A stretch of DNA of 38,122 bases from Jaapia argillacea MUCL 33604. Lineage: Eukaryota; Basidiomycota; Agaricomycetes; Jaapiales; Jaapiaceae. The notes beneath the pieces were generated by a model. The model had not been told where the DNA came from and made no database searches. It saw only the letters and a program-made list of their open reading frames with translations. Positions 4,870 to 37,003 of the stretch are shown one piece after another. Position 1 is the first letter of the stretch. Each line of letters opens with the position of its first letter. A program made the translations under genes and the position numbers. The stretch is taken from NCBI GenBank assembly GCA_000697665.1, contig KL197779.1, positions 1-38,122 of the forward strand, given 5' to 3'.

Positions 4870-5095
4870 CTTGCTAAGAGGCACCTGTATGCCAAGCACG
4901 CAAAAGCAGAAACATCACTCTCTGTTGTTGGATGATCGTTACTGAGGAGTTCGGGGGCAGAAACCCGGATATTGCTCATCGGGTCGATGCCAGACGGTGT
5001 CTATGTCATGGAGGCTACACTTGGGACATGTCTCGTTAATCCAAACTCGCATAGTAGTGCATCACCATCGTCCGAAACAAGAATTGCGAGGGGTG
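4870..5095 (-). pseudogene. relic of a tyrosine-kinase-like protein kinase
   Basis: On the minus strand, one frame reads ILVSDDGDALLCEFGLTRHV, then an in-frame TAG (5001-5003), then IRVSAPELLSNDHPTTESDV followed by SAFACLAYR. This aligns along its length with exon 4 of the intact kinase at 27887-30277 (VLVADNGEALLADFGLARHV ... APELL ... ESDVYAFGCLGLQ), and a GT donor lies at the same place as in that gene. The DFG aspartate is glutamate (EFG). No convincing remainder of the kinase was found at 5100-5400. It is a dead exon fragment; it overlaps no intact gene and lies between the unknown-family gene on the left and the aminopeptidase 3' end. Confidence 0.75.
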
Positions 5096-14596: not shown

Positions 14597-16661
14597 ATGC
14601 TCTCACTACTCGCTGTGACCGCCTTGTACGCGGCACACGCTACTTTGGCCTACAACAATGGTTTAGCTATTACCCCACAGATGGGATGGAATACCTGGAA
14701 CCACTTTGCGTGTAACATCAGCGAGGATACGATCTTGAGCGCAGCCAAGACGATCGTGGCCCAAAATTTGACGCAATATGGGTACGAATGTGCGTAGCTC
14801 ATATATACATCTTTACCGCATAGAACTCACCAGAGGGTATTGATAATGTTATACAGACGTGATCATGGATGACTGTATGGCCATCATCGACTGAGAGCTC
14901 CCTCCACACTAACGCTGCATCTCGCACCAGGCTGGCAAGCCCCCGCTCGTGATAATGCTACAGGAGCCCCGGTAGCTGACCCTACAAAGTTCCCGAATGG
15001 TGTCAAGGCCCTCTCAGACCAACTGCACGCCATGGGTTTGAAGGTTTGTCCCATGACACTCTTGCGGAGGATGGGCTGAAATTGGTTGTAGTTCGGAATA
15101 TACAGCTCAGCCGGCGAGTGAGTGGGAGTCCTTTCTCTGGTTGATGTTTAACATGCTTAGGCGGTTGAGACAGGAACACCTGTGGTGGCCGATTCGGCTC
15201 CTTAGGATACGAGACCATCGACGCACAGACCTACGCGAGCTGGGGAGCGGACTATCTTAGTGTGTTTTTTCCTTGATCCGCGAGCTCGCCCTTATCTTTC
15301 AAATCCAGAATATGATAACTGCTACAATGATGGTCGTTCGGGTTATCCTCTCATCTCTTTCCAGCGGTACCAGAACATGAGCCTGGCGTTGAATGCGACT
15401 GGTCGACCTATCTTGTACTCAATGTGTCAGTGGGGAGAAGATCAACCTTGGAATTGGGCAACGGCACGTTTTTACCGACATTTTCGAATCAAATCTCCTA
15501 ACCCGTTCCGATTTTTGTGTGTTAGACTATCGCCAATAGCTGGAGAATATCGGGCGATATCATGGATGTGAGTCTCGCACCTCTACCCTCGCTCGACCTT
15601 GTGTTCATCTATGCTCCGACGATAGAATTTTGGAAGGTATGACGATCGCTGCCCATGTACCTCGATGCTCGACTGCAAACTCTCCGGATACCGTGAGCTT
15701 CAATCCCTATCTCAACTTATTCCAGATTCTCCTGATAACCAAAGGTGTCTGGTAGACTGTGCGATGTCTCGTATCATCGATTTCGCTGCGCCATTAGGCC
15801 AGAAAGCCGGACCTGGCCGGTGGAATGATCTTGATATGTTGGAGGTACGATCTTGAAGCCACCGTCGTTGCATGACCGAACTCATCAGTTTTTCGTTTCA
15901 CTTAGGTCGGAAATGGTGGCATGACCTACGACGAATATGGTAGGCCTCCCTGAATATCAGTACTAAAGGAAGGGCTAAGAATTCTACCAGTAACGCACTT
16001 CACGATGTGGTCTATCCTCAAAAGCCCGTTGATTCTCGGTAACGATGTGACCAACATGGTATATACTCTCTTCCTACCGTTCTTCGCGTAGGCTTGATTG
16101 GTGTTTCTATCATACAGGCAGCCGAAACGTACTCCATCATCACCAACGATGCTCTCATCGCGATCAACCAGGATGCGAATGGTTCTCCTGCGACTAGGAT
16201 GTGGAAAGTCTTGGTCGATGGAGGTGATCTATCGCTATGGTCGGGTTCGCTTGTTAACAAGTGAGTTGCTTATACCAAGGCCAATTACCGGCGAAGATCT
16301 AAACTGACGTTCGTCATGTCACAGCACATACGTATTTGCCCTTCTCAATACCTCTCCGTCAAATCAAACCGTGGACATTGAGTTTACTGACGTCTTCTTC
16401 GATGAGGTATGCGCTTACCCGTGTTTCCACAACCAGTAGTTTCTTACAATAAGATCACGTCTGCAGGGTCCAGCGTATCAAACTGGTACTTACACACTCT
16501 ACGACCTATGGCAAAAGAGCGCTTCTGGAGCTTGGGGTCTAACCGTCGGAGAGGCGACGGGAAGTTTGCCTGGCGTGGTTGTTGGTCCTCATTCGACAAA
16601 GGTCTGGAAGGCTGTTCCTGTGAGTGCCGGGATGGCAAGACGAAGTGCTGAGGAGTTATGA
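14597..16661 (+). CDS. secreted alpha-galactosidase, glycoside hydrolase family 27 (copy a)
   Basis: Predicted retaining alpha-galactosidase (melibiase) releasing terminal alpha-galactose from oligosaccharides or galactomannan outside the cell. A signal peptide [18 protein letters not shown] is followed by [19 protein letters not shown], the typical start of the mature enzyme. After splicing, LKYDNC carries the nucleophile Asp and [10 protein letters not shown] the acid/base Asp. [30 protein letters not shown] and [13 protein letters not shown] follow, then the C-terminal beta domain to the stop at 16661 (about 445 residues). There are more than ten short introns; the one after WNWAT has a GC donor (ACG|GCACGT) where copy b has GT. 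All exons are in frame, so this copy looks functional. Its 3' end faces a dead VTI1 copy. Confidence 0.92.
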
Positions 16662-16934
16662 CGGGAATGCTTGGGAAGGTAGTGACCGTTGATGTGGATG
16701 GACAGCTGTCGTCTGTTCAGGAATGTTGCTCTTTTGAGGCTTGTTGACGACTGCAACAACGTTTGTAGATTGTGTAATGTAGAGCGATCGATCTTCTATT
16801 CACCTGCGCCCGGAAGTGACATTCTGATAAGGACGGGAAACAAACGATCAAGATCCTCAGTATATTTGGTCGTATGGTGGACGAGTTGCCACATGTAGAT
16901 ACGACCACACATCTGCAACTTCAGTAGAGCAGGA

Positions 16935-17610
16935 TATGAGATACTGGCCCACAAGATGGTAAGTATCAGCGGTGCACGGACGACGTGATAGCGACAATCA
17001 CGATGCCTACATCCTACACAATGCATCACCAGAGATGCGGGGGAAAGGAGGGGAGAAGGGGACGTACCGTCTGATCTCCTTCAACGTCCAGGATGCTCTG
17101 CAACTGGCCAGCACAAAAGATCAGCTAAAATCAAACGAAAGGACGGGTGGTGTGTCCAATCGCCTCCCTCTACCCACTCGAATCGTTCGAGATATTTGCC
17201 TCTCGCTCCCCAGTCCAAGTCTCGAGCGCACTCCTCTAACTCTCCAAAACATCCTACCCACATCTTCCAACGGAGTCGGGCCTGCGCTTGAGGCATCTGC
17301 TCCTCCCGTGTCTCTTCAGTTCCATGAGGGCAGATATGACGATGCGAATCCATATGTAGTGGAGGAGAGGAGGTCAGTACGAGAGCGAGATAGCCAGAGG
17401 GAAACTTTGGAGGGCTTTCAGACGCGAGGTGCAGGAGATGTTGAGTGAATTGGGATGGGTGATTACTTGGATTTCCAACGTGATTCTTTGGAGTGGAAGT
17501 GGTATAGAAGTGGAAGAGGGGCATCATGATACCGTCTCCTACGCCGCGTCCAAATCCATCTCTCGTCTCCACTGAGATACCGCCTTTCTTCGCTCCATCA
17601 CGCTGAATCG
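16935..17610 (-). pseudogene. decayed copy of VTI1
   Basis: This stretch aligns base by base, with many substitutions and small indels, to the intact VTI1 gene at 24257-25229: for example GGCCCACAAGATGGTAAG against GGCCCATAAGATGATAAG at the membrane-anchor end, GACGTACCGTCTGATC against GACGTACCGTCTAATC at an intron donor, and the GGAGGAGAGGAGGTC segment in the middle. It sits downstream of GH27a in the same opposed orientation as VTI1 sits downstream of GH27b. No open reading frame preserves the SNARE sequence. It was carried along in a GH27-VTI1 duplication and has decayed. Confidence 0.8.
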
Positions 17611-18410
17611 ACCCCGTAGTAAACTGGTGCACAGAGACAGCAATCAAAGATATATACTTATCGATAACCCGCTGTTTCGTTCGAGATTCGCTTGACGCGT
17701 CAAGTTCAACCGCGCTGAGTGGACGCGTTGAGACCACGTGACCAGGGCGAATGACGGATCCTAGCGGTTTGTTCCAGCTCACATTACAGCTAAATTCAGA
17801 ACGATAGACCAGAGCGATTTTACTCGACTCAGGCCCGTCCGTTGAAAAAAGGGGAAATTATATTGATTTCGGGGATTCGAACTCGTATTGTGGTGCTGGG
17901 TGGAGCCAGTCGTCAAGGCACCGCGTTCGACTTGCCTCAAACAGCGACTGAACCGAGAGGCTTCTGAGAGTGAAAGAAATCTGAACGGTCTATCGTTCTG
18001 AATTTAGCTGTACTTCCTCTCGTCCTCCTCCTCTATAGCTTCATCCGAAGTATCTGCAGCGATCATAATGGTGAGCAATGTCTAGAAATTGAAGATGAAC
18101 AAGGTTGACGGCGGCCGCTGGTTCCGAAGAGAATGTCCGATTAGTGATTGCGAGGACTAATGGTACTGTCAGCCTCCGACGAGCTGAGGCGGCATGCAGG
18201 ACGCGTCACCTCAAGTCGCTCCCGGTGACTCAGCCTCAAAGTAGGATGACCACTACCGCAGCAGCTGGGATCACCAGAATGCTGTTGCGAGCGTAAGTTA
18301 CTAAGTATATAGGAACATCGAAATGCTGCTGGTGTCGCTAGTCATCCCTCGTCAACGAATCGACTTCATCAGGAAACCACCACTACCCCAGCAAAGAACA
18401 ACTTGTAATC
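17611..18410. other. upstream region of epimerase A
   Basis: No gene is supported. The last ~350 bases (from about 18059) are similar to 20059-20378 upstream of epimerase copy B, including a GGACTAATGGTACTGTCAGC block. A TATATA at 18306-18311, about 100 bases before the ATG, is kept in both copies and is the likely core promoter. Confidence 0.5.
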
Positions 18411-19301
18411 ATGCGTGTCTTCGTCACCGGCGCCACAGGTTTCGTCGGATCCGCCCTCGTTCCCCAGTTGATCCAGGCGGGACATCAGGTCGTCGGTCTC
18501 GCCCGCACAGACGCTGCCGCTGAATCCCTCCACGCTGCGGGGGCCGAATCTGTCCGCGGTTCCCTCGACGATCTCGAAATCCTCAGTAAAGCAGCAGCTT
18601 CCGCCGATGGTGTTATTCATGCCGGTTTCATCCACGACTTTTCCAACTTCGTCGCCTCTTGCGAGACCGACCGTCGCGCCATCGAAGCGTTCGGCGCCGC
18701 GTTAGCAGGGACCAATAAGCCACTTGTTGTCACCTCCGGGACCATGATAGCATCTGGTGGCAGTACAATCGCCACGGAAGAGGATGGTCCCAAGATGGTG
18801 GGAAATCCACGTGGGCAGTCGGAGGAGCTGGCGTTAGCATTGGCTGAGAAAGGCGTGAGGGTATCGGTCATAAGGTTGCCTCCTTCCGTTCATGGAGTAG
18901 GCGATCACGCATTCATGCCTGCGCTAATCGGCATCGCAAAGAGCAAGGGCGAGGCGGCGTACGTCGGTGATGGTTCGAATCGCTGGCCAGCAGTTCACAG
19001 ACAGGACGCTGTGCGTCTCTACCGACTTGCATTGGAGAAGGCTCCCGCTGGAACGAGGGTACACGCGGTTGGTGATGAGGGAGTGAAGATAAAGGATATA
19101 GCAGGGGTAATGGGTCGTCAACTCGGTATTCCGGTGGTGTCCAAGTCTGCTGAGGAGGCGGTCGGACACTTTGGATTCCTCGGCCACTTTATTGCAGTTG
19201 ACAATCTGACTTCGAGTGCGCTTACGAGGGAGAGGTTTGGCTGGACCCCCACACAGCCAGGTTTGCTCGCTGATTTGGAAGAGAACTACTTCAAGGTGTA
19301 A
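18411..19301 (+). CDS. NAD(P)-dependent epimerase/dehydratase-like protein, extended SDR family (copy A)
   Basis: Intronless, 296 residues. The Rossmann start [14 protein letters not shown] has the TGxxGxxG cofactor motif, and an Arg after strand 2 (GLARTD) favours NADP(H). Later blocks include [53 protein letters not shown] and LTRERFGW. The usual catalytic YxxxK is not visible: where it should lie the sequence is GNPRGQSEELALALA, so it is an atypical SDR and the reaction cannot be predicted. Close relatives are, from family knowledge, common in bacteria. The lack of introns beside intron-dense neighbours would fit an old transfer from bacteria (inference). A TATA box is at 18306. A damaged tandem copy follows at 20379. 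Confidence 0.85.
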   Translation: MRVFVTGATGFVGSALVPQLIQAGHQVVGLARTDAAAESLHAAGAESVRGSLDDLEILSKAAASADGVIHAGFIHDFSNFVASCETDRRAIEAFGAALAGTNKPLVVTSGTMIASGGSTIATEEDGPKMVGNPRGQSEELALALAEKGVRVSVIRLPPSVHGVGDHAFMPALIGIAKSKGEAAYVGDGSNRWPAVHRQDAVRLYRLALEKAPAGTRVHAVGDEGVKIKDIAGVMGRQLGIPVVSKSAEEAVGHFGFLGHFIAVDNLTSSALTRERFGWTPTQPGLLADLEENYFKV

Positions 19302-19519
19302 CGGCGAGGGAGGAAGTTTAGTGATAGGTGTTATACAGGAGGTGTTAGATACGGGGATGGTTTCTTTGTTCTTGTACTTGTAAAGCTGTTGATCCATGTA
19401 GTCGTATCCTTGATTTCCCTGTCGATATTGAGCAGATCTTTGGTTGAATTGTTCATCATTATGTAACTATATATATTCGCTCTCTTTGACATCTACTACA
19501 CTAGTGGAGTCTTCTCACT

Positions 19520-19689
19520 GAGAAATCACTGGGACAGTCTCTGCAAAAATCGACACATCGGCAGCTGGAATCTATCGTGTTGCCTCCTTCCGACTCTTCG
19601 ACTCTTGTTTCCGACGGTTTGTCCAGTTCCTACGAGACTCATGCTTTCACTACTCCCAATCGGATGGCATTTTACGCTGTGAACATCGA
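19520..19689 (+). pseudogene. truncated 5' end of a third GH27 gene
   Basis: The region matches the leader and first codons of GH27b: CGGCAGCTGGAATCTA and TCTTGTTTCCGACGGTT are shared with 21620-21680, and the ATG at 19641 opens a signal-peptide-like sequence homologous to that of GH27b (starting at 21692), but it is frame-damaged. Similarity ends at about 19689, after GTGAACATCG. The breakpoint defines the right edge of tandem unit A. Confidence 0.75.
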
Positions 19690-20378
19690 TACCCTCTGAG
19701 GTGTCTGACACTAGAAGTTTTTTCAACCTTGAGACCACCAGAGATAGCTGTACGGTATGTTGCAGTATGTTGAACAATTTCATTTGCTTGCTCAAGGAGT
19801 GGATTTTGCTCAGATTCCCACAGCGTCAACATGGCCCTAGTTCGACATCCCTTCCACCAGCTATTCTCCTTCCTCCTCCTTGTAGATCGAATCGAATCTA
19901 GACTGCTTGGGATAGTACATTGACAGGCGCTCCGTTGGGACTGGAAAGACGCTGCGGTTTGATTCGCGGATTCGAGCCGGACGACACATGAACCTTGGGT
20001 GAGTTTATCGCCTCCGAGTCTATCACTTCATAGGAAAACATTTGAACTCGTGCTTACAGCGATAGTGATGGTGAGTTGTCACATCAAGACATTGAAGATG
20101 GATTGTGCGGTTCCAAACGGCCACGGAGAAAGTGCGATTAGTGATCGCAAGGACTAATGGTACTGTCAGCATCGAACCACGAGTTCGCCGTCTGCGAGTC
20201 GGCCCTCGACGTTGAATGACCACTACTGCAGCATCTGAGTTACCAGAATTCAGTTTCGAGCATCGATATATAGGAACAAGGAAATGCTGTTGGTCTTGCC
20301 GGTACTAGTCATCCCTGCATCGACGAATCCACTTCACCAGGAAGCGAGGACCACTCCAGCAGAGAAAACTTCACAATC
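19690..20378. other. intergenic, promoter of the decayed epimerase B
   Basis: Sequence from 19690 to about 20000 shows no coding signal and no clear homology to the block. From about 20059 it is the duplicated epimerase promoter, with the ATATATAGG TATA element retained at about 20266-20274. Confidence 0.5.
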
Positions 20379-21740
20379 ATGCGCGTATTCGTCACCGGCG
20401 CCACAGGTTTCGTTGGACCACCCTCGTTCCCGAGTTGATACAGGCGGGACATCAGGTCGTCAGTCTCGCTCGCTCAGACGCTGCCGCTGAATCCCTCCAC
20501 GCTGCAGGGGCCGAATCTATCCGCGGTTCCCTCGACGATCTCGAAATCCTCAGTAAAGCAGCAGCCTCCGCTGATGGTGTCATTCACGCCGGTTTCATCC
20601 ACGACTTTTCCAACTTCGTCGCCTCTTGCGAGACCGACCGTCGCGTGATCGCGACGTTTGGTGCTGCGTTGGCTGGGACAAGCCGCTTGTGGTCACTTCG
20701 GCGACTATCATAGCATCTGATGGCACTACAATCGCCACTGAAGAGGATGGTCCCAAGATAGTGGGACATCCACGTAGGAGTTGGCATTGGCTGAGAAAGG
20801 GGTGAGGGTATCGGTCATAAGGTTGCCTCCTTCCGTTCATGGAGTGGGCGATCACGCATTCATGCCTACGCTAACCGGCATCGCAAAGAGCAAGGGCGAG
20901 GCGGCGTACGTCGGTGATGGTTCGAATCGCTGGCCAGCGGTTCACCGAATGGACACCGTGCGTCTCTATCGACTCGCATTGGAGAAGGCTCCGGCAGGAA
21001 CGAGGGTCCACGCGGTCGGTGAGGAGGGAGTGAAGATGAGGGATATAGCTGGGTTAATCGGTCGGCAACTCGGTGTTCCGGCAGTGTCCAAGTCTGCTGA
21101 GGAGGCTGTCGACCACTTTGGATTCTTCGGACACTTTATTATGGTCGACAATCTGACTTCAAACGCGCTTACGAGGGAGAGGTTTGGTTGGATCCCCACA
21201 CAACTAGGATTGCTCGCTGATTTGGAGGAGAACTATATCAGTGTGTAATGAATTCTTAGTGATAGGTACTCACACGAGCAGCTGCAGGAGGTGGTAGATA
21301 GGAGGGCGTCAGTTTCTTTGTTCTTGTAAAGTTGTCGAACTGTTGTCTTTTCCGAGTCCCGACCGTGATATTCAACAGATCTTTGATTATTGTGAATCAA
21401 CATCGTTTTTCGTTACTCTCAAGTTTCCTTGTCATCTACCACAGTACTTGTGGAGTCCGAGTCTTCTCGCTGCTCAGCGAACATCCCAATCCACAGTGCC
21501 TAGGATGCTGTAAACAAAATATCGTTGACCATCTCGGAAGCATTCCTGAAGTGAACACTCGACCAGCTTCCCTCAGAAAACACTGACTCGGAGACAGCCT
21601 CTCTGTAAATCGACGCCTTGCTGCTGGAATCTACTTCCTTGCCCCTCCTTCTGATTCTCGGCTCTTGTTTCCGACGGTTCCTACAGGACTCATGCATTCA
21701 CTACTGCCAATCGCGACGGCAATGTACGCTGCGAACATCG
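20059..21740 (+). repeat. tandem duplication unit B (epimerase plus GH27b 5' end)
   Basis: Direct repeat partner of 18059-19689. Here the epimerase is broken but the downstream GH27 is nearly complete, whereas in unit A the epimerase is intact and GH27 is truncated. Confidence 0.75.
20379..21248 (+). pseudogene. decayed epimerase copy B
   Basis: Very similar to the gene at 18411-19301 but with three deletions relative to it: one base in the codons after GFVG (about 20416-20424), four bases near 20680, and sixteen bases near 20775. The first brings an in-frame TGA at 20436-20438, codon 20. The three losses add to 21, so the last third (from about 20781) is again in the original frame and reads LAEKGVRVSVIRLPPSVHGV to the normal C terminus. 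The middle is out of frame. Many differences in the C-terminal part are silent or conservative, so decay may be fairly recent. A functional protein is not expected. Confidence 0.88.
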
Positions 21741-23931
21741 CTTGGGCGTATAACAACGGCTTAGCCATCACTCCACAAATGGGATGGAATACCTGGAATT
21801 ATTTTGGGTGTGATATCAGTGAGGATACGATCTTGAGCGCGGCCAGGACGATTGTTGCTGAAAACTTGGTGCAACACGGGTATCAATGTGCGTCATTTCT
21901 CGATACGTAGTTTACGCGTAATCACTCCTCCTCACCCGAAGTCTGACCCCAAAGCATGCTTGATGGTTTTCTCTAGATGTTCTGATGGATGATTGTATGA
22001 CTACCTTCAAATCATACGTCGACCCGACCTGACGTCTGAGCGAAACAGGTTGGCAAGCGCCAGAACGAGACAAAACTACCGGAGCACCTATCGCTGATCC
22101 CGAGAAGTTCCCAAACGGAATCAAAGCACTTTCGGATGAGCTGCATACGATGGGCTTGAAGGTATGTCTGTCTAACATTTTTTTCACTAAATACGATGTT
22201 GAACTTGACTCTAGTTCGGAATCTACAGTTCGGCTGGCCAGTGAGTGCCGTTCCCCCAACCTCCGCGTCGTCATTCTGAGGAACGTGAGATAGGTACACC
22301 TGCGGTGGCAGATACGGTTCGTTAGGGTACGAGACGATCGATGCTCAGACTTATGCAAGCTGGGGAGTTGATTACCTTAGTACGTCCCATCCTCTCCTTG
22401 TCCACTTTCAACACTCTTACTTTGCGTCTTGACAGAGTATGATAACTGCTATAACGATGGCCGCTCCGGTACGCCTCTCATCTCATTCGAGCGATACCAG
22501 AACATGAGTCTGGCATTGAATGCGACTGGACGACCTATCTTGTACTCGATGTGTAACTGGGGAGAGGATCAACCCTGGAATTGGGCTACGGTACGCAGGA
22601 ACCTCGTTCTTTCTCTATTTTTTTCGTTAAGCCGAGGAGTTCCTTGCTTTCAGACCATAGCGAATAGTTGGAGAATTTCAGGCGATATCATGGATGTAAT
22701 AATCATCCTCTACCAAGTTTATCAAGCCATTTACTGAACGTGGTACTCTATCGCAGAACTTTGGGAGGTACGACGATCGATGCCCATGCACCTCCATGCT
22801 CGATTGCAAACTTCCTGGGTTCCGTGAGTTCTTTCTCCATTCTGTGGCGATGAAACCATCGTTCATTTTTCGATGTTTTAGATTGTGCTATGGCTCGCAT
22901 AATCGATTTCGCTGCGCCGTTCGGCCAAAAGGCAGGACCAGGTAGGTGGAATGATTTGGATATGTTAGAGGTTCGTACTACCAGAGGGTCAACTATCCTC
23001 TCTTTCCCGCATGTTAATACTGATCGGGTTTCTGTCGACCATTTGTAGGTCGGAAACGGTGGCATGACTCATGATGAATACGGTGGGCATCTAATCTTCG
23101 CCGCCATCTCACCACGAATAACAACCAATAACGCCAGTCACTCATTTCACAATGTGGTCTATTCTCAAGAGCCCTTTGATCCTCGGCAACGACATCACCC
23201 ATATGGTCACCACACGCTTCCTTCATACGCCGCCCCTTCCAGACCGCTAACATTCATCCTGCAGACGAGCGAGACGTATTCGATAATAACCAACGACGCA
23301 GTCATCGCAATTAACCAGGACGCGAAGGGTTCCCCCGCAACTAGGATATGGAAAATCTCGGTTGAAGGGGGTGATCTGTCGCTTTGGTCTGGGTCGCTGG
23401 TTAACAAGTGAGTTCAGATGTCTCTCGAGCAAATAAAATGATGGGAACTGGGGGTTTGTTACAGTACTTTCGTCTTCGCCCTCCTCAACACGTCTCCCTC
23501 TAGCCAAACCGTCGATATAGACTTCACAGATGTATTCTTCGACGATGTGCGCTCTCTTCCCACTGTTCATCATCGAGTTTCTCACCTCTGCGAAACATCT
23601 CCATAGGGTCCCGCTCATCAGACTGAGCGGCTCTCGGCCTACATCGCATGTCATGTCGACAACGACGTCTCACCCTAGAGACCGCCCCGTCAGCCTCAAT
23701 TCGGGAGACAGATCCACGACCGTCCTCTCCTCTCCCTTCCTTCGATATTCACGGAATAGGGGTGCCCGCCACCCGAACCAATCTCGCACTTACAACCTAT
23801 ACGACCTTTGGCAGAAATCACCCTCTGGAATTTGGGGTTTGGATGTTGGAGAAGTACAAGGTGGTCTACGTGGCGTGGCGGTTGGACCACACTCGACGAA
23901 GGTGTGGAAGGCAGTGCCCGTAAGCCCTTGA
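21692..23931 (+). CDS. alpha-galactosidase, GH27 (copy b), C terminus interrupted
   Basis: Close paralogue of the gene at 14597 with the same exon pattern. Signal peptide [19 protein letters not shown], then [25 protein letters not shown] (nucleophile Asp), [10 protein letters not shown] (acid/base Asp), [17 protein letters not shown] and [13 protein letters not shown] are all in frame up to the last intron. The final exon starts GPAHQT at 23607, but about 160 bases are then present that copy a lacks, giving a TAG at 23676-23678. The homologous ending ([20 protein letters not shown] to VWKAVPVSP) resumes at 23791 in another frame and ends at 23931. As read, the enzyme loses about 60-70 residues of its C-terminal beta domain. 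The catalytic barrel is intact, so it may be a truncated enzyme, an early pseudogene, or spliced in a way I did not see. Confidence 0.8.
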
Positions 23932-26845: not shown

Positions 26846-27158
26846 ATGGCGGCGAAAAGCAAAGCAAAGTCTGTCTCCGTTCCTATCTCGCTCTCAACCA
26901 TCACGACGTCTAACATTCTTGAATTCGCGGTTGCTTAGAACCCTCATCGTCCGGTTAATCTCAACGGCCCAAACAGGTTACTTTTATACCTCCAAGCGAG
27001 TTAGGCAGGGAGTAAAGTTGTCTGGTGTCAAGTATGATCCTGTCGGTGAGTTCATTTGCCCTTTCATTGGAGCTTGGGTGGGTGCTGACTTTGGGTTGTG
27101 GTCGGTAGTGAAACAGAGGGTGTTGTTCGTGGAGAGTAAGAAGACGAGAGGGAAGTAG
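26846..27158 (+). CDS. mitochondrial large-subunit ribosomal protein bL33m
   Basis: Homologue of bacterial L33, a small protein of the large ribosomal subunit. Three exons (26846-26868, 26939-27045, 27109-27158) give a 59-residue basic protein: MAAKSKAKTLIVRLISTAQT, GYFYTSKRVRQGVKLSGVKY, DPVVKQRVLFVESKKTRGK. The L33 signature (LISTAxTGxxY, then KLxxxKYDPxxKxxVLFxE) is complete. Fungal bL33m proteins often lack the zinc-binding cysteines of some bacterial L33 forms, as here. Both introns are needed to keep the frame. A second copy of exons 2 and 3 lies at 31225-31445. Confidence 0.93.
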
Positions 27159-27886
27159 GTTGGTTGGGTACCGTTGGATGGGGATTTATTCAAGGAGGTC
27201 GACGGCTTCGAGTCGCCCCCTTTCCTGCCAGGTGAAGGCGGTTCCCGTCAGTCCGCGACGGTGAAGTGTGTATTGAGGTATGATTGATTGCAACCATTTT
27301 GGTTGGCGCAATGGGCAATACGACACCTTATTGGAATCGTGACCTCGTCTCGTGCTTCTTACCGAGTATCATTCGCATCTTCAAACTCTCAAATCGTGGT
27401 GCGGAGTCCCTCGTCCCTCCGCGGGATGTGACTGGCTCAAGTTGAACACGTCCATCTTTGTGCCATGGTCTCCAGGCGATTAGTCGTCTCTCTACAGTTC
27501 GTCCGCCTCAGGTCTCACACAAGCCATTCAGGTCGCGTCTTGCTTTCATTGGAACGACCAAGACCACATAACAATCGTCACTTCTACCGTACTATGCCCT
27601 GCAACAGGGCGACATGAGCATCCCAGGAGAGGACGACGCGTCCCACACCAATTGAAGCTAGAGGCTTGGAATCACTCGGTAAACGCCTTGGTGACTGTTC
27701 AATTTTTCTCGACGATACGTCCAACGAATCCTAAAGGCCTGAAATTCGATACACATGTACAAAATCCCGGGTCAAGACATCCATCTCTGTGCGTAAGAGT
27801 GCATCAGCAGTCTCGTTCTTGATGGGTGCTGAGCGGATGTCAGCTATCCGCACAATGTGTCATAGGGGATCATTCGACTCACCTTT
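27159..27886. other. intergenic, nothing recognised
   Basis: The first ~100 bases are 3' flank of bL33m and show weak similarity (a GGTCGACGGCTTCGAG block) to the flank of the second bL33m copy near 31484. The rest has no coding or RNA signal that I can support. Confidence 0.4.
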
Positions 27887-30277
27887 TTACATTTCATTGC
27901 GAAACTTCCTCAGCGTTCTTGTGATTTCATTCATTGTCGGCCTACGATCTGGCTGATGGTCCAAGCACTGATCCACTAATGCCCATAAACGATCATCGAA
28001 GCCCGCCCACTTGACAGCCGGATCAGAGGGTCTCTCTGGCTTCACGCCATTAACCAGTCCCGACAGCACGTCGAACAGTGACCGATCACCGAAAGGCCAC
28101 CGACCTGTAAATATCTAGGGGAATGTAACATTCAGCTCAATTGGCAACAAAATAAGTACCAAGAACCCACCTGGATTACCAAGCACCCAAACGCGTAAAC
28201 ATCGGTCTGAGGTGATTTTCGATTACCTTCGCCTATGAGGAGTTCCGGAGCCCAGAATACTTGAGGGAATTGTTCCCCCACGAAGGAATTATCTTCGTAG
28301 TCTGAGAGACCGAAGTTGTCCAAGAGGGCACGGCCCGCGTCCGAAATGAGGATATTGTCCTGTAGACAGGTGGGCGGCATCTTCAAGGGGCGAGAAAACA
28401 TACTCACCCCTTCAAGGTCCCCGTGGGCACAAACCCTACCAGATCTCCCAGAATGAAGATACTCCAATGCGTCTGCAATCTGCAGAATCTAGAGAGAGGA
28501 CTGGTTCAGGTTTAGTGCATGGGCATAGATTGCTACATTAACATACAAGTCTGTTGCGGTCGAAGGAAGGGTATTGTCGAAGGAAATTGATGCAATTCCC
28601 TTGAGCAACATAAGGTGAAACGAAGCAAATTATTCCTCGAAAATCCGCAATGCCGTAAAGCGGTAGAATGGACGGGTGGTCAAAGCTGGACCAGGTTCGG
28701 GCTCGCTGCCGCAAATATAGCTGGAAGCCACAAGACGTCAGCCCACAATCATGTAAAAAAAGGCGAAACTAAGTCGGTATACCATTCTCGCTCTGTGCCT
28801 CACATCGGTATCAGCCCTCAGACTCATGGTGCATCGAAAAGCTTTTACCAAAACCTTCTCCCTCCGCCCTCCTCTGTCTAATTCAATCAGATACGCATCG
28901 GAGTTCATATCGGAGGCAAAAGGATCTTTGGGGAGCACCAACATTCCAGTGAGGTCCTCCAGCCCATCGAAAACGTCTACGTCAGATGTATTTGTTGACG
29001 GCGATGCCTGACTTTGATTCTGGTACGCGGGTGAGAGGTAGTTATCAAGTGCCTTTGCGGATCAAAATGAACAGGTAAGGTCTTCAGTGAATGTGTGGTA
29101 ATAATTACTCACAAGCTCAGATGGTATAGTCATGCGTGGCGAAGGAATTGCGTCCACATCATTTTTGGCGCATAGAGCGAGAAAGACATCTCGTATTGAT
29201 GGTCGTGACGATGGCTCGTACTCCAAGCATTGATCAACAAGCAACCACATCTCGTCATCAAGCCCGGCAGAGATGGCGCCTTGATTCTCAGGGCGAGATG
29301 GCTTGGATCTCTCTATGACCTTCAAAACTAGCATGCGACCTTCCGACATGCGAGCGAAGGGAGCATCTCCGGAGAAGATCTGGCAATCAAGTAAGTTCCG
29401 AACAATATTTTCAGAAAGATGACGAGGAAATTTCCGCACCTGGAGACCCAAGCATCCAAAAGCATATACGTCACTCTCTTTTGTCGGCCTGGTGTCGGTC
29501 ACAAGGAGTTCAGGCGCAGCAAATCGAGCATGTCCAACATTGGGTAACTTTAATCCGGTCTGTGACAATGAGCACATGGCTTCAACATGTCGCGCCAGCC
29601 CAAAGTCTGCCAACAGAGCTTCTCCATTGTCGGCTACGAGCACATTATCCTGCCTGGCGTCAACAGGGAATTTCAGGAAAGTTGATGAGAGAGTGACAGC
29701 TGACCCCTTTCAAATCACCGTGAACAAACGAGAAGCCAGCACCGCCTGAGTGAAGGTAGTCCAATGCATCTGCTACCTGCCGTACCTGAAAAGTCGTTCG
29801 AACGAGTTCTATCAATAGTGAAACCACACCCGAACTCACTAAGGGCAGTCGCCTGGCTTCTGGATGCTTCTGCAAGTATTGCATACAATTTCCGTTGTTC
29901 GCCCAAGGCGATATCATTGAAAACCGTCGAAAGTCATTCTCTATCGAGTAACCCAAAAACGGCAAAATGTGGGGATGACGGAACTTGAACCAGCGATTCA
30001 CCTCCCTATGAAACAGCTAAAGCGGGGCCATTCATAAAGCTATGAAGTCAGTACAAACTCGAGAGGAGAAAGAAGAAGGGCGCACCTGCAATGCCGGCTC
30101 AGGTTGATCTACATATACTCTTAGACGTTTCATCGCGACCACGCATACTTTTCCGTCGCGTTTCCACTCTCCTTTAAAGACATCGCAAAAGGCGCCGGAG
30201 GCGAAGGGACCTGTTACGTTGGTGATTTCTTGGCTGAGGTCGGGAGGTTCTTCATTATTGACTGACGAGAACTCCAT
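27887..30277 (-). CDS. tandem kinase-pseudokinase protein, tyrosine-kinase-like type
   Basis: Ten exons, all joined at phase-0 introns, give 622 residues with two kinase domains. Domain 1 (about 20-300): glycine-loop region GPFASGAFCDVFKG, VAMK lysine K50, HGDLKG with Asp147, DFG at 165-167, APELL, SDVYAFGC and a C-lobe ending RPSIRDVF; all catalytic residues are present. A Ser/Asp-rich linker (about 310-345) follows, starting ALDNYLSPAYQNQSQ. Domain 2 (about 346-622): DPFASDMNSDAYLIELDR aligns with the glycine loop but lacks its glycines; VLVK lysine K379; HGDLEG with Asp481; the DFG motif is NFG (N499-G501); then WAPELL, TDVYAFGC and RRPTMNEI. The exon joining the two domains, 28783-29052, reads straight through both and supports one protein. 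No signal peptide or membrane helix. Targets are unknown; an upstream exon cannot be excluded. Confidence 0.85.
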
Positions 30278-31224
30278 AGCGATGCCAAAGAGCGATAACT
30301 GTGAATCAAGGATCAAGAGGAGGGTGGTTCGATTGCCCTGATGTTAGCGAGTTCGGGCCTGCCACAAAAGGATCAACGGTCACAAACTGGGTTGCGCAGG
30401 CTATCAGCGCCGACATTCGTCATTACTGCCCGCTGATTACACCTGTAGTCGGGGCGAGCGAGTGAAAGAGGGGGAAGACAGATGCAGAGAAATGCCTTTC
30501 CGCGAACCTTCAGATGGTATCAAGCGCTTCAGGATCGATAGCCGTATGGCCCAAAGGGTACCGAGTTCCTCGATAGGAAAGACAATACTGTGTGATTTCG
30601 TCCCCGGCAGCTAATCAGATTCAGCTGGACAGAATAGCAGGCTCGGACCGATGGAAGGTCGTAGAGGACCCGGCATTCCAGCGTATGGACGACAAATGAC
30701 TGCTGGGATCGAACCAAGGTGCAAACTTGGCGCCACAACCATACAGCAAGTCACAACGAACGAACATTTACCGGCCCGGTCACTCCGCTCCCGCGTCCAT
30801 GTACACTCCCAGTCATCGTCTTGAACGACGTCGACGGCGTCTTCTCACCCTGGTTCGACCCGCGTTCTTGACAACTGAACCTCGTTCTTGAATCATGATC
30901 TTCTTTGGAGTACAGTAATTGCTTGTGCAGCAGACGCACAGGATGTCCCGCGTCTCGCCATCTCCCGAGCAGCCCCCTCCCACCTCGAAATCATCTGTAG
31001 CGGCTTCACAGCTCTAGGTGGTTAATTCTGCAAAGGTTTCTCCCGAGACTTAGCACCTCCCTTCGCCTCACTCCGCACAAACCGATGCTAAGCATGTTTA
31101 ACATACCAAGCTCAAGCCAAAATGAAGATATTCGCCCCTATTGGTTTATTAGTGCGGTGAAATTGAGGGTTAGTCTATGCCATCGTCAAATCTTTATAAA
31201 TATTAATCCTCTTTTTCCGCGTAG
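30278..31224. other. intergenic, nothing recognised
   Basis: Upstream region of the kinase gene. Short ORFs lack motifs. A GGTTCGATCCC sequence (minus strand, near 30706-30716) resembles a tRNA T-arm but no complete tRNA fold could be made around it. Confidence 0.35.
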
Positions 31225-31445
31225 AACCCTCATCCTCAGACTAATCTCAACGTCACAAATGGGGTACTTTTCTATCACTCGATGGGTTAGGCAGGGAGGA
31301 AAGTTGTCTGCTGTCAAGGGTGCATCTGTGGGTGCGTTTTGTCTGCCTTGGTTCATTAGTATGGAGGGATGATGATCTTGGATTTTGCTAGGTTGCGAAA
31401 CAGAGGGTGTCGTTCGTGGAGCATAGGGAAACAAGTGTGAAGTAG
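31225..31445 (+). pseudogene. partial second copy of bL33m (exons 2 and 3)
   Basis: Exon 2 follows a GCGTAG acceptor and reads TLILRLISTSQMGYFSITRW, then VRQGGKLSAVKG, matching bL33m exon 2. After a shifted donor (TCT|GTGGGT) and a TGCTAG acceptor, exon 3 reads VAKQRVSFVEHRETSVK-stop. Splicing would still keep frame, but no recognisable exon 1 with a start codon was found upstream. Substitutions affect conserved positions (TGY to MGY, KYDP to KGAS). About 100 bases of 3' flank are also similar. Likely a decayed partial duplicate; a diverged live paralogue is possible if an upstream first exon exists. Confidence 0.7.
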
Positions 31446-32032
31446 GTTGGTTTGGGATCATCGGTTGACGTGTTATCCAGGAAGGTCGACGACTTCAAGG
31501 CACAACCTCCACCGACTGTGATAGACTGGTCCCTTTCCTCCTGGGCGTCGAAGTGCGAGTTGACGTGTGGTTCATTCCAGCCAATGCCGTCATCGGCAAT
31601 GGTCAATGGTGATATGGGTGTTGGATCAGGACACTGCTTCCGTGATTGAATGTTTCGAATCGTTCGAGGTTGTGGAATATTCGTGTGGGTTGTCACCTAT
31701 AACTACACCTCAGGGTCTTAGGATGTGGATCGATGGAGACGAGGCGAATGATGGCCTGTCGGTGAGTAGTCATCTCGTCACAAGGTTCCTTAGCTGATTA
31801 ACCCTACAGCACCCCACATCAAGTTTTCAATCATGATAGCGAATTTAGAGTGAATCGCTTCGCACACATAACAAAGCTTGGAGTACAGCCTGTAAGCCCT
31901 CCCTATACACCAGTGTTACGTAGGCGCGCGAGGGGATGCTCGTATGGACATTGAGCAGCAGGCCGTTCTACTCCTCTTCGTCCAAGAACGACTGTAAATC
32001 CTTTGGTGTCTGTACGTGTAGAACGAATGTCC
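31446..32032. other. intergenic, 3' side of unknown-family member 2
   Basis: No gene supported. Around 31715-31760 the plus strand encodes LRMWIDGDEAND, which resembles the WLWxDGDE block of the unknown family, and the bases GGATCGATGGAGACGAGGC resemble the matching part of the gene at 34675. This may be a tiny family fragment or chance. Confidence 0.3.
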
Positions 32033-35434: not shown

Positions 35435-36031
35435 CACTGCAGACGGGTGAGGATAACCCCCTTGGGCATATTGTTGTCAAAGCCATTGGTATTTTATCAA
35501 AATATCCGTACCTGTGGCGCAGGAACCAAGCCAATTATATAGTTTACTCATACCGTTGAGTATCGCCGAGCGACGCAGCCACATGGCGGAATTCAAACTA
35601 TATCTCAAATTATACCACTTGCCTCTGTCAAATGGACATATTATAAAAATACCACTAAGGATATGGCGCAAGGGTGAAGCCATGCGGTATTTTTTGAATA
35701 AGTCAGCATGCTATTAGTCTCCCCTCTGCTCGCTGATCGTCCTGCCACCTACACCACTCCTGGCATATTCAAAAAATACCGCATGGCTTTGTCCATGGGC
35801 CATATCCTTGGGGGTATTTTTATAATATGTCTATCCGACGTAGGCAAGTGGTATATTTTGAGACATAGTTTGAATTCCGCCATGTGGCTGTGTCGTTCAG
35901 CGATACTCTATGGTATAACCAAACTATATAATTGGCTGGGTTCCCGTGCCACAGGCATGGATATTTTGATAAAATACCAATGGCTATGCTGACAATATGC
36001 CTGGGAGGGTTATCATCACCCGTCTCCAGTG
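35435..36031. mobile_element. foldback (MITE-like) element with CACTG ends
   Basis: Two arms of about 265 bases are inverted copies of each other around a ~65-base unique centre (about 35701-35765). Examples: CATGCGGTATTTTTTGAATA (35681-35700) against TATTCAAAAAATACCGCATG, and GCCATTGGTATTTTATCAAA against TTTGATAAAATACCAATGGC. The outer ends are CACTGCAGACGGGTGA at 35435 and TCACCCGTCTCCAGTG ending at 36031, one mismatch. Both sides are flanked by AAG (35432-35434 and 36032-36034), a 3-base target duplication. CACTG-type ends with a 2-3 base duplication suit the CACTA/EnSpm group. No transposase is encoded; the ORFs are mirror images of arm sequence. Arms differ by scattered substitutions. 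Confidence 0.85.
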
Positions 36032-36034
36032 AAG

Positions 36035-36735
36035 GTTGGGTGGGAACCAATGAGATTGATTCGGACGCAGTGCAAGATCTATCTTCTCACCCACTTACAG
36101 GTGGATCTTGAATCACGATTTGCTAACATCAGAAACCCCAAGGAGAACACAGGTTGCAAAGTATCACAATATAATATAATACTCATAGCTACAGGCTTGA
36201 GGGAGTGGTGTGTGGGTGCAAATAGACTAGTTAAAGGGTGAATATGGTACAGGAAATGAGGGGAACGACGCGGACAGTGGTCAAAACTCAATGCTGAAGA
36301 AAACTTCAATCGATGAAATCTGCTAGGTGCCGGCTCTCACGGCTCTGTGAGCGTTCACCAGCCCCTGCACTCAAGGATAATTTTCCTTCCATGAAATAGC
36401 ATAATGGGATGTGGATGCGCAGGTAATTGGGACTCCCTAGCTGACAGCCCACGACACCTTTATGTGTGTACTCCAGCCAAGCGGGATCACAATGAACGGC
36501 ACAAGGGGATCCACAAAAAAATTGGTAGCGAGCATCATGGGGGAAGGGGGTGTACTGATAAGAGACGAGAACCAACTATCAGAAGAAGGGTAAGGTCGGC
36601 GACGGGGGCGGAAAGTCGAAAGAGAGTAGGTGGCATATGAGGACACCACATAGGAGTGATTTGTGTGCGTCAGGCTGAACAGATAGAGAACAGAGAACAC
36701 ATGGGAGGAGATATGAATTGTGAAGTGTGGGTTGT
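36035..36735. other. intergenic, nothing recognised
   Basis: No coding or RNA gene is supported. ORFs on the minus strand across this stretch are of low complexity or antisense to the minisatellite that follows. Confidence 0.4.
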
Positions 36736-36824
36736 ATGGGCCGTGTAGTTGCATGGGCTGTGTAGTTGCATGGGCTGTGTAGTTGCATGGGCTGTGTAGT
36801 TGCATGGGCCGTGTAGTTGCATGG
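36736..36824. repeat. minisatellite, five 17-base units
   Basis: Five tandem copies of ATGGGCYGTGTAGTTGC (36736-36820) plus a partial ATGG. The first and fifth units have CC where units 2-4 have CT, so the inner copies probably arose by a recent unit duplication. Confidence 0.9.
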
Positions 36825-37003
36825 ACGTCGAGCATCACAGCACTGGAAGGCACATTACGCAGGGACTTGTGGAGTGGGGGAGGAACCACATTACAGAGAA
36901 CTAATCGATGGATAGACAAACACAGTACCATGAACCAACATGAACCAAACCATTACCACGCCGATAAAAGCATAAGAACTCACCTTCTCGATCAATAACC
37001 CCC

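Follow-up and report, generated by a model that had tools for sequence, protein, structure and literature searches.

The genome of Jaapia argillacea MUCL 33604 carries a gene whose predicted protein joins an active-looking kinase domain (domain 1) to a pseudokinase (domain 2). The best overall explanation, which we consider probable but far from assured, is a fungal kinase-pseudokinase fusion of two paralogues that was later copied and in which domain 2 would control or scaffold domain 1. The gene lies in the stretch of DNA analysed here, called the window (38,122 nt; contig KL197779.1, positions 1-38,122, i.e., C71:1-38122), and the genome has 43.7 Mb in 95 contigs.

Rebuilt exon by exon, the gene runs on the minus strand from 30423 to 27887, with 11 exons that give one frame of 641 aa (Table 1). 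Ten exons, from 30277 to 27887, give 622 codons with phase-0 joins and GT-AG introns of 48-69 nt, whereas the intron between exons 1 and 2 has 89 nt. A preliminary description had proposed a single frame of 622 residues; the joined frame stands, but its length becomes 641 aa once a first exon of 12 codons and another 7 residues are included. The start at 30277 was dropped for the exon at 30423 on the ground that this first exon is found in three copies of the gene. The Met at 30277 is preceded by the block LSLFGIA, whose counterpart in the copy on contig C42 is LSLFGII, and the third, decayed copy on C71 has a short first exon (MANIIANVPRKL) and an altered form of the LSLFGI block. Since C42 likewise has the short exon as well as the LSLFGI block, the true start is placed upstream of 30277.

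Table 1. Exons and linker intron of the fused kinase gene, in window coordinates.
Feature	Position	Strand	Remarks
Exon 1, MTNVGADSLRNP	30388..30423	-	36 nt; GT donor, phase 0; equivalent 12-codon exons are MANFVAYALRKS in the C42 copy and MANIIANVPRKL in the third, decayed one
Exon 2: N-terminal leader (LSLFGIAMEFSS...), glycine loop, beta3 Lys (VAMK), domain 1	30086..30298	-	
Exon 3: alpha-C helix with Glu, N-lobe to hinge, domain 1	29840..30016	-	
Exon 4: alpha-E and HGDLK catalytic loop, domain 1	29705..29785	-	
Exon 5: DFG, activation loop, APE, SDVYAFG, domain 1	29440..29649	-	
Exon 6: end of domain 1 C-lobe and start of linker	29113..29379	-	SEL/SDL splice position kept in the C42 copy
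Linker intron joining both domains, GTGAGT...AAAG	29053..29112	-	60 nt, in-frame TGA; C42 equivalent of 55 nt, GTGAGT...CAG
Exon 7: remaining linker, degenerate glycine loop, VLVK, domain 2	28783..29052	-	
Exon 8: alpha-C without Glu, N-lobe to hinge, domain 2	28547..28720	-	
Exon 9: alpha-E and HGDLE catalytic loop (Lys lost), domain 2	28408..28488	-	
Exon 10: NFG for DFG, shortened activation loop, TDVYAFG, domain 2	28171..28359	-	
Exon 11: end of domain 2 C-lobe and stop codon	27887..28114	-	

Both domains match PF07714 (PK_Tyr_Ser-Thr) above its curated cut-off of 23.1 bits (domain 1, E = 1.6e-35, 123.1 bits; domain 2, E = 6.2e-26, 91.7 bits). In the 622-aa protein, a query to which the 19 N-terminal residues added later are external, only kinase families pass the Pfam cut-offs. 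Most of the best 60 of the 2228 PDB sequence matches of this protein are chains of B-RAF, in agreement with the earlier assignment to the tyrosine-kinase-like group, and in all 60 the best-matching stretch lies in domain 1; the kinase domains of B-RAF, TNNI3K and SYMRK are among these 60 (6xfp_A, E = 6e-24; 8peh_B; 4yff_A). None of these three proteins is known to have its kinase joined to a pseudokinase in one chain. The motif DL(R/A)A(A/R)N of subdomain VI, given as the tyrosine kinase motif in a passage of PMC3937382, is not in domain 1, where DLKGDN is found instead.

Residues were tabulated for 34 domains of this genome, 29 of which are active-looking (domain 1 of both copies included, together with two rows that bear an aligner frameshift mark) and define 39 near-invariant columns. 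Domain 1 keeps all of them in the window gene and in the C42 copy (39/39 each), and domain 2 keeps 33/39 and 27/39, respectively. The beta3 Lys, alpha-C Glu, HxD Asp, Asn and DFG Asp are all present in domain 1, as would be expected of an active kinase, and its motifs VAMK, HGDLK and DFG are as first described. Domain 2 still has the beta3 Lys, the HxD Asp and the catalytic-loop Asn, but lacks other residues expected of an active kinase: the alpha-C Glu (aligned to Arg, or to Gln under another placement of a one-residue insertion), the catalytic-loop Lys (HGDLE for HGDLK) and the DFG Asp (now Asn). The other three losses concern one glycine of the phosphate loop, another just past it, and a glycine that falls in an alignment gap, presumably within the shortened activation loop. 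The preliminary description was right about VLVK, HGD, NFG and the lost glycine loop, but its list was short: part of the activation loop is missing as well, and so are the catalytic-loop Lys and the alpha-C Glu. In the domain 2 of C42, NFN replaces DFG, and, unlike in the window gene, the beta3 Lys and the catalytic-loop Asn are also gone. That Asn stands for the DFG Asp there too suggests that this change predates the parting of the copies. The DFG Asp is present in 30 of the 34 rows, the exceptions besides both domains 2 being C60_113380 and the decayed C71_49653. In 32 of the 34 rows HGD replaces HRD, which makes these non-RD kinases.

The C42 copy has the same two domains, linker, linker intron and short first exon as the window gene. 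Its domain 1 is interrupted by a stop codon, and at the third intron no acceptor stands at the usual place (the aligner took one a few codons further on); this copy may be a pseudogene. The third copy starts at about 55.7 kb of C71, on the minus strand, and is decayed; no domain 2 was found at this place. The locus concerned (L056, C71:48-56 kb) thus holds, on the same contig as the window gene, both this copy and a decayed tandem kinase pair, and its decayed kinases are a sign of gene birth and death. The window itself contains, at 4893-5084 on the minus strand, what is left of another kinase of this family, with CEFGL where DFG is expected and a stop in frame.

The window contains several repeats. 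The kinase gene lies between two directly repeated stretches of about 283 nt (26933-27212 and 31219-31499) that are 73% identical; a genome search with 31190-31560 matched just these two places, and the repeat may mark an old local duplication. Further away are a duplication pair at 14617-16267 and 21715-23414 (about 7.1 kb apart) and, nested between its members, another at 18129-19129 and 20126-21076 (2 kb apart). From their motifs, we take the duplicated genes of 14617-23414 to be a GH27-like alpha-galactosidase and an NAD-dependent epimerase. The window also has an inverted repeat at 35435-36031 (272-nt arms, 86%) and a 17-bp tandem repeat at 36714-36841.

The origin of the two domains was analysed with a tree of 34 domain rows, which leaves out L052 (a partial match) and the decayed minus-strand copy of L056. 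The domains 1 of the window gene and of C42 are sisters (support 100/99). Their domains 2 are also sisters (98/95), within a clade of 17 rows (100/99), 14 of which were modelled as single kinases; domains 1 and 2 are not each other's closest relatives. In AU tests, forcing the four domains into one clade gave -17.7 log units (p = 0.0048), and forcing the two window domains into one clade gave -40.5 log units (p = 4.35e-6). The rows of domain 2 are long branches, and the tree was rebuilt with one domain 2 at a time, also without C60_113380, C14_579823, C32_76583 and C71_49653. Each domain 2 keeps its place in that clade (99/99 and 98/98), with AU values that are borderline (0.057 with the domain 2 of the window gene, 0.037 with that of C42). 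By plain identity in this set, the row closest to the domain 2 of C42 is C60_112112 (45%), which is related to domain 1, and the row closest to that of the window gene is C72_9859 (44%).

Other characters were considered as markers of origin. The beta3-alphaC loop was measured as the number of residues between the beta3 Lys and the first conserved junction. All six rows of the domain 1 kind (window, C42, three from C60, and C24) have 14; the domain 2 of C42 has 18, as do the 14 single kinases in the other clade, and the domain 2 of the window gene has 20-21 (20 when counted on the exon itself). As distant rows (C25, C32, C71_48065 and one from C73) also have 17 or 18 residues, 18 may be the older state. 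These rows, together with a length of 11 in the decayed C71_49653, which belongs to the clade of domain 2, weaken loop length as a proof of that clade; it argues only against domain 2 having been copied from a domain 1 of the 14-residue kind. Four intron positions are common to both domains, but all four occur in 23 of the 34 modelled domains and each one in 29-33 of them. Being so common, they mark the family rather than an internal duplication, and we dropped them as proof of the latter. Nor do the shared blocks that had been offered as evidence of duplication single out these two domains: HGDL and SDVYAFGC are widespread in the family, and PFAS, present in both window domains, is missing at that place from both C42 domains, which we take as chance.

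The comparison of the two copies informs on the constraints acting on domain 2. Identity between the window gene and C42 is 62% in domain 1 (169/273 aligned residues) and 47% in domain 2 (128/270). The NG86 estimates of dN/dS are 0.267/1.239 = 0.22 for domain 1 and 0.445/1.038 = 0.43 for domain 2, both of them rough since dS exceeds 1 and the recent evolution of the broken C42 copy may be relaxed. Domain 2 evolves faster, yet it is constrained (dN/dS below 1). Its five exons are open and flanked by GT-AG introns in both copies, at a divergence of 34-48% of sites depending on codon position. In simulations with 0.2 neutral changes per site, domain 2 stayed free of stops in 0.05% of 2000 draws; with 0.1, the value was 2.3%. 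The C-lobe of domain 2 is better conserved (96/183 identical) than its N-lobe (32/87). The better-kept C-lobe and the open exons fit a domain that would retain its fold and a binding role.

The kinase and the pseudokinase very probably form a single gene, as supported by a second tandem copy, on C42, with the same two domains, linker and linker intron. Read without splicing, the frame ends soon after domain 1, at the TGA of the intron at 29112-29053, and there are ATG codons in exon 7; this would suit two adjacent genes, a kinase that ends at the intron TGA and a separate pseudokinase that starts at an exon 7 ATG. Intron retention would likewise yield a product with domain 1 only. Against two genes stand the 60 bases, scant room for the end of one transcript and the start of another. 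The C42 copy moreover retains the splice position (after SEL in the window gene, SDL in C42), the GTGAGT donor, the spacing between linker and domain 2, and a related linker (QNQSQASPSTN... vs HNQIKSSPSTS... between the two copies; 20/51 aligned residues alike over residues 310-366 of the window protein). Other tandem loci can also be read through an in-frame linker bearing an intron (by eye, and by the aligner for C60), and we regard two genes as highly improbable. The single gene with an active-looking domain followed by a pseudokinase, as originally put forward, is thus upheld by the tandem C42 copy, its linker and intron, and the loss of motifs. No third kinase domain was found beside it: the best flank scores are 46.5 and 44, in a scan of 70 flanks (some short at the end of the locus) where the best scores were at most 57, or at least 273 where a tandem domain was present. 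That domain 2 is a pseudokinase is nearly as secure. CASK has been reported active without the DFG Asp, and a domain 2 that retains the beta3 Lys, the HGD Asp and the following Asn could by that precedent be an unusual yet active enzyme. We find this quite improbable, as this domain has also lost its glycine loop, its alpha-C Glu and its catalytic-loop Lys, and as the domain 2 of C42 additionally lacks the beta3 Lys and the Asn.

It is likely, with somewhat less confidence, that the gene arose by fusion of two diverged paralogues rather than by internal duplication, which the preliminary description had thought likely. The internal duplication of one kinase domain followed by inactivation of the second copy would explain why the domains are of one family, have four intron positions in common and are 42% identical over 282 codons. 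The borderline AU values with a single domain 2, and the closeness of the domain 2 of C42 to a relative of domain 1 in that set, also speak for it. However, these intron positions are widespread in the family, the tree and AU tests set domain 2 in the other subclade, where each domain 2 taken alone also falls, and the 14-residue loop of domain 1 and its kin is in neither domain 2, which leaves internal duplication unlikely. A slightly better, though still low, chance goes to domain 2 being a dying appendage, functionless and heading for loss. Its evolution is 1.7-2.6 times as fast as that of domain 1 (dN of 0.445 vs 0.267; branch sums of 1.70 vs 0.65), C42 has a stop in domain 1 and further residues lost in its domain 2, and no domain 2 was found in the third copy, which is decayed. 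All this would be expected of a domain under decay, but a dN/dS of about 0.43 would not, nor would a fairly conserved C-lobe or five exons that are open in both copies at a divergence where neutral sequence would carry stops.

We thus favour the fusion, and its history and working may be pictured as follows. Two already diverged kinases of one expanded family would have been joined through a phase-0 intron, and the fused gene afterwards copied at least once. In the 641-aa protein, a Ser/Thr kinase of the tyrosine-kinase-like group, active-looking and non-RD (HGD), would be followed by a linker of about 55 residues and then by the pseudokinase. The pseudokinase is expected to remain folded as a kinase and, with its Lys, HGD Asp and Asn retained, may still bind nucleotide; having lost the DFG Asp, the alpha-C Glu and the catalytic-loop Lys, it would not perform ordinary Mg-dependent transfer. 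Most likely it sets the activity of domain 1, either by packing against it or by binding a partner or substrate. On the sequence data at hand, we lean slightly towards such control or scaffolding in cis. Non-RD kinases are thought to be independent of activation-loop phosphorylation. Since the RD arginine is absent, domain 1 is probably not switched by this means, and a fused pseudokinase would be a natural way of controlling a kinase that does not need such phosphorylation, or of choosing its partners.

The family from which both domains would be drawn is large: a profile search of this genome gave at least 163 exon-level matches to PF07714. We took 61 loci and modelled 24, the remainder overlapping these or the window. 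Two tandem kinase domains are found in six of the 24, i.e., C42, C60 (112-114 kb), C71 (48-51 kb, decayed), C25, C73 and C32, the last three having been chosen because their match coordinates looked tandem; fusion was judged from the open frame and the splice sites. The first domains of C25 and C73 are sisters, and so are their second domains; by eye these loci (L059 and L060) have similar linkers and look like kinase-kinase fusions. The second domain of C32 has an LAIK stretch in an unmodelled piece. At L040 (C60:112112-114408), a degenerate domain (SFA for DFG) precedes an active-looking kinase, with an in-frame phase-0 linker intron; this is apparently a pseudokinase-kinase tandem, in reversed order relative to the window gene. 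Two sister kinases of C60_112112, C60_105987 (L040) and C24_80694 (L048), have a related linker and a different N-terminal stretch upstream, which in C24_80694 has no Pfam match, and the front module may have been swapped. No hidden kinase domains were found upstream of the "single" kinases within the flanks scanned, some of which were short.

Among known systems, the closest analogues appear to be the tandem kinase-pseudokinases (TKPs) of plants. The passages of PMC6170490 drawn on here present WTK1/Yr15 and RPG1 as TKPs with two kinase domains and no other. They describe WTK1 as a kinase followed by a pseudokinase, with a non-RD KinI and an apparent origin by fusion of two kinase families, and report a faster divergence of its pseudokinase (about 80% vs 30% identity between paralogues; PMC6170490). 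The window gene has the same architecture, a tandem kinase and pseudokinase with no other domain, and resembles TKPs in having the kinase first, a non-RD motif, a putative origin by fusion and a faster pseudokinase. Plant TKPs differ in belonging to plant kinase families and in having, for some, demonstrated roles in disease resistance, whereas the function of the window gene is a prediction. Among the rows compared, those closest to it are other kinases of this fungus. TKPs would be analogues rather than kin, with a likeness that came by convergence. Within an expanded non-RD kinase family of rapid turnover, the gene could then be a fungal counterpart of the plant tandem immune proteins, with a fast-changing captured pseudokinase acting as bait or sensor for a kinase-targeting factor of an invader or rival and releasing the attached kinase, but this is a speculation to which we give little credence.

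Two other kinds of protein also pair a pseudokinase and a kinase in one chain. Janus kinases are tyrosine kinases in which the pseudokinase precedes the kinase (JH2-JH1), with FERM and SH2-like domains. The window gene has the opposite order, kinase first and pseudokinase second in the spliced frame, as the preliminary description had recognised, and the Pfam search found no FERM or SH2-like domain in it. GCN2, of another kinase group, occurs in fungi and has both kinds of domain, again with the pseudokinase before the kinase and thus in opposite order, together with RWD and HisRS-like domains.

Kinase expansions are reported in Laccaria, Agaricomycetes and Rhizophagus in passages of PMC2838846, PMC3937382, PMC4219462, PMC10197012 and PMC8778642; these passages concern TKL kinases in Laccaria and FslK in Agaricomycetes (PMC2838846, PMC3937382), most FslK members having no additional domain (PMC3937382). 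Like the family of the window gene, these are large kinase sets in mushroom-forming fungi. Fused pseudokinases do not appear in the passages of the five papers; the terms "pseudokinase" and "two kinase domains" are absent from the main text of PMC3937382, as are "pseudokinase", "two kinase" and "tandem" from that of PMC2838846. Literature searches, covering titles and abstract openings among the matches listed and few subscription journals, returned no paper on a fungal tandem kinase-pseudokinase; protein databases of domain architecture may well hold such fungal genes without comment.

A passage of PMC3937382 states that the functions of FslK need experimental work, and the roles of the large TKL expansions in mushroom-forming fungi are still to be settled by experiment. 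The presence in one genome of apparent kinase-pseudokinase and kinase-kinase tandems and of one pseudokinase-kinase tandem would provide a natural series on how pseudokinases gain control of kinases, and this series bears on whether fungi evolved the design of plant resistance kinases.
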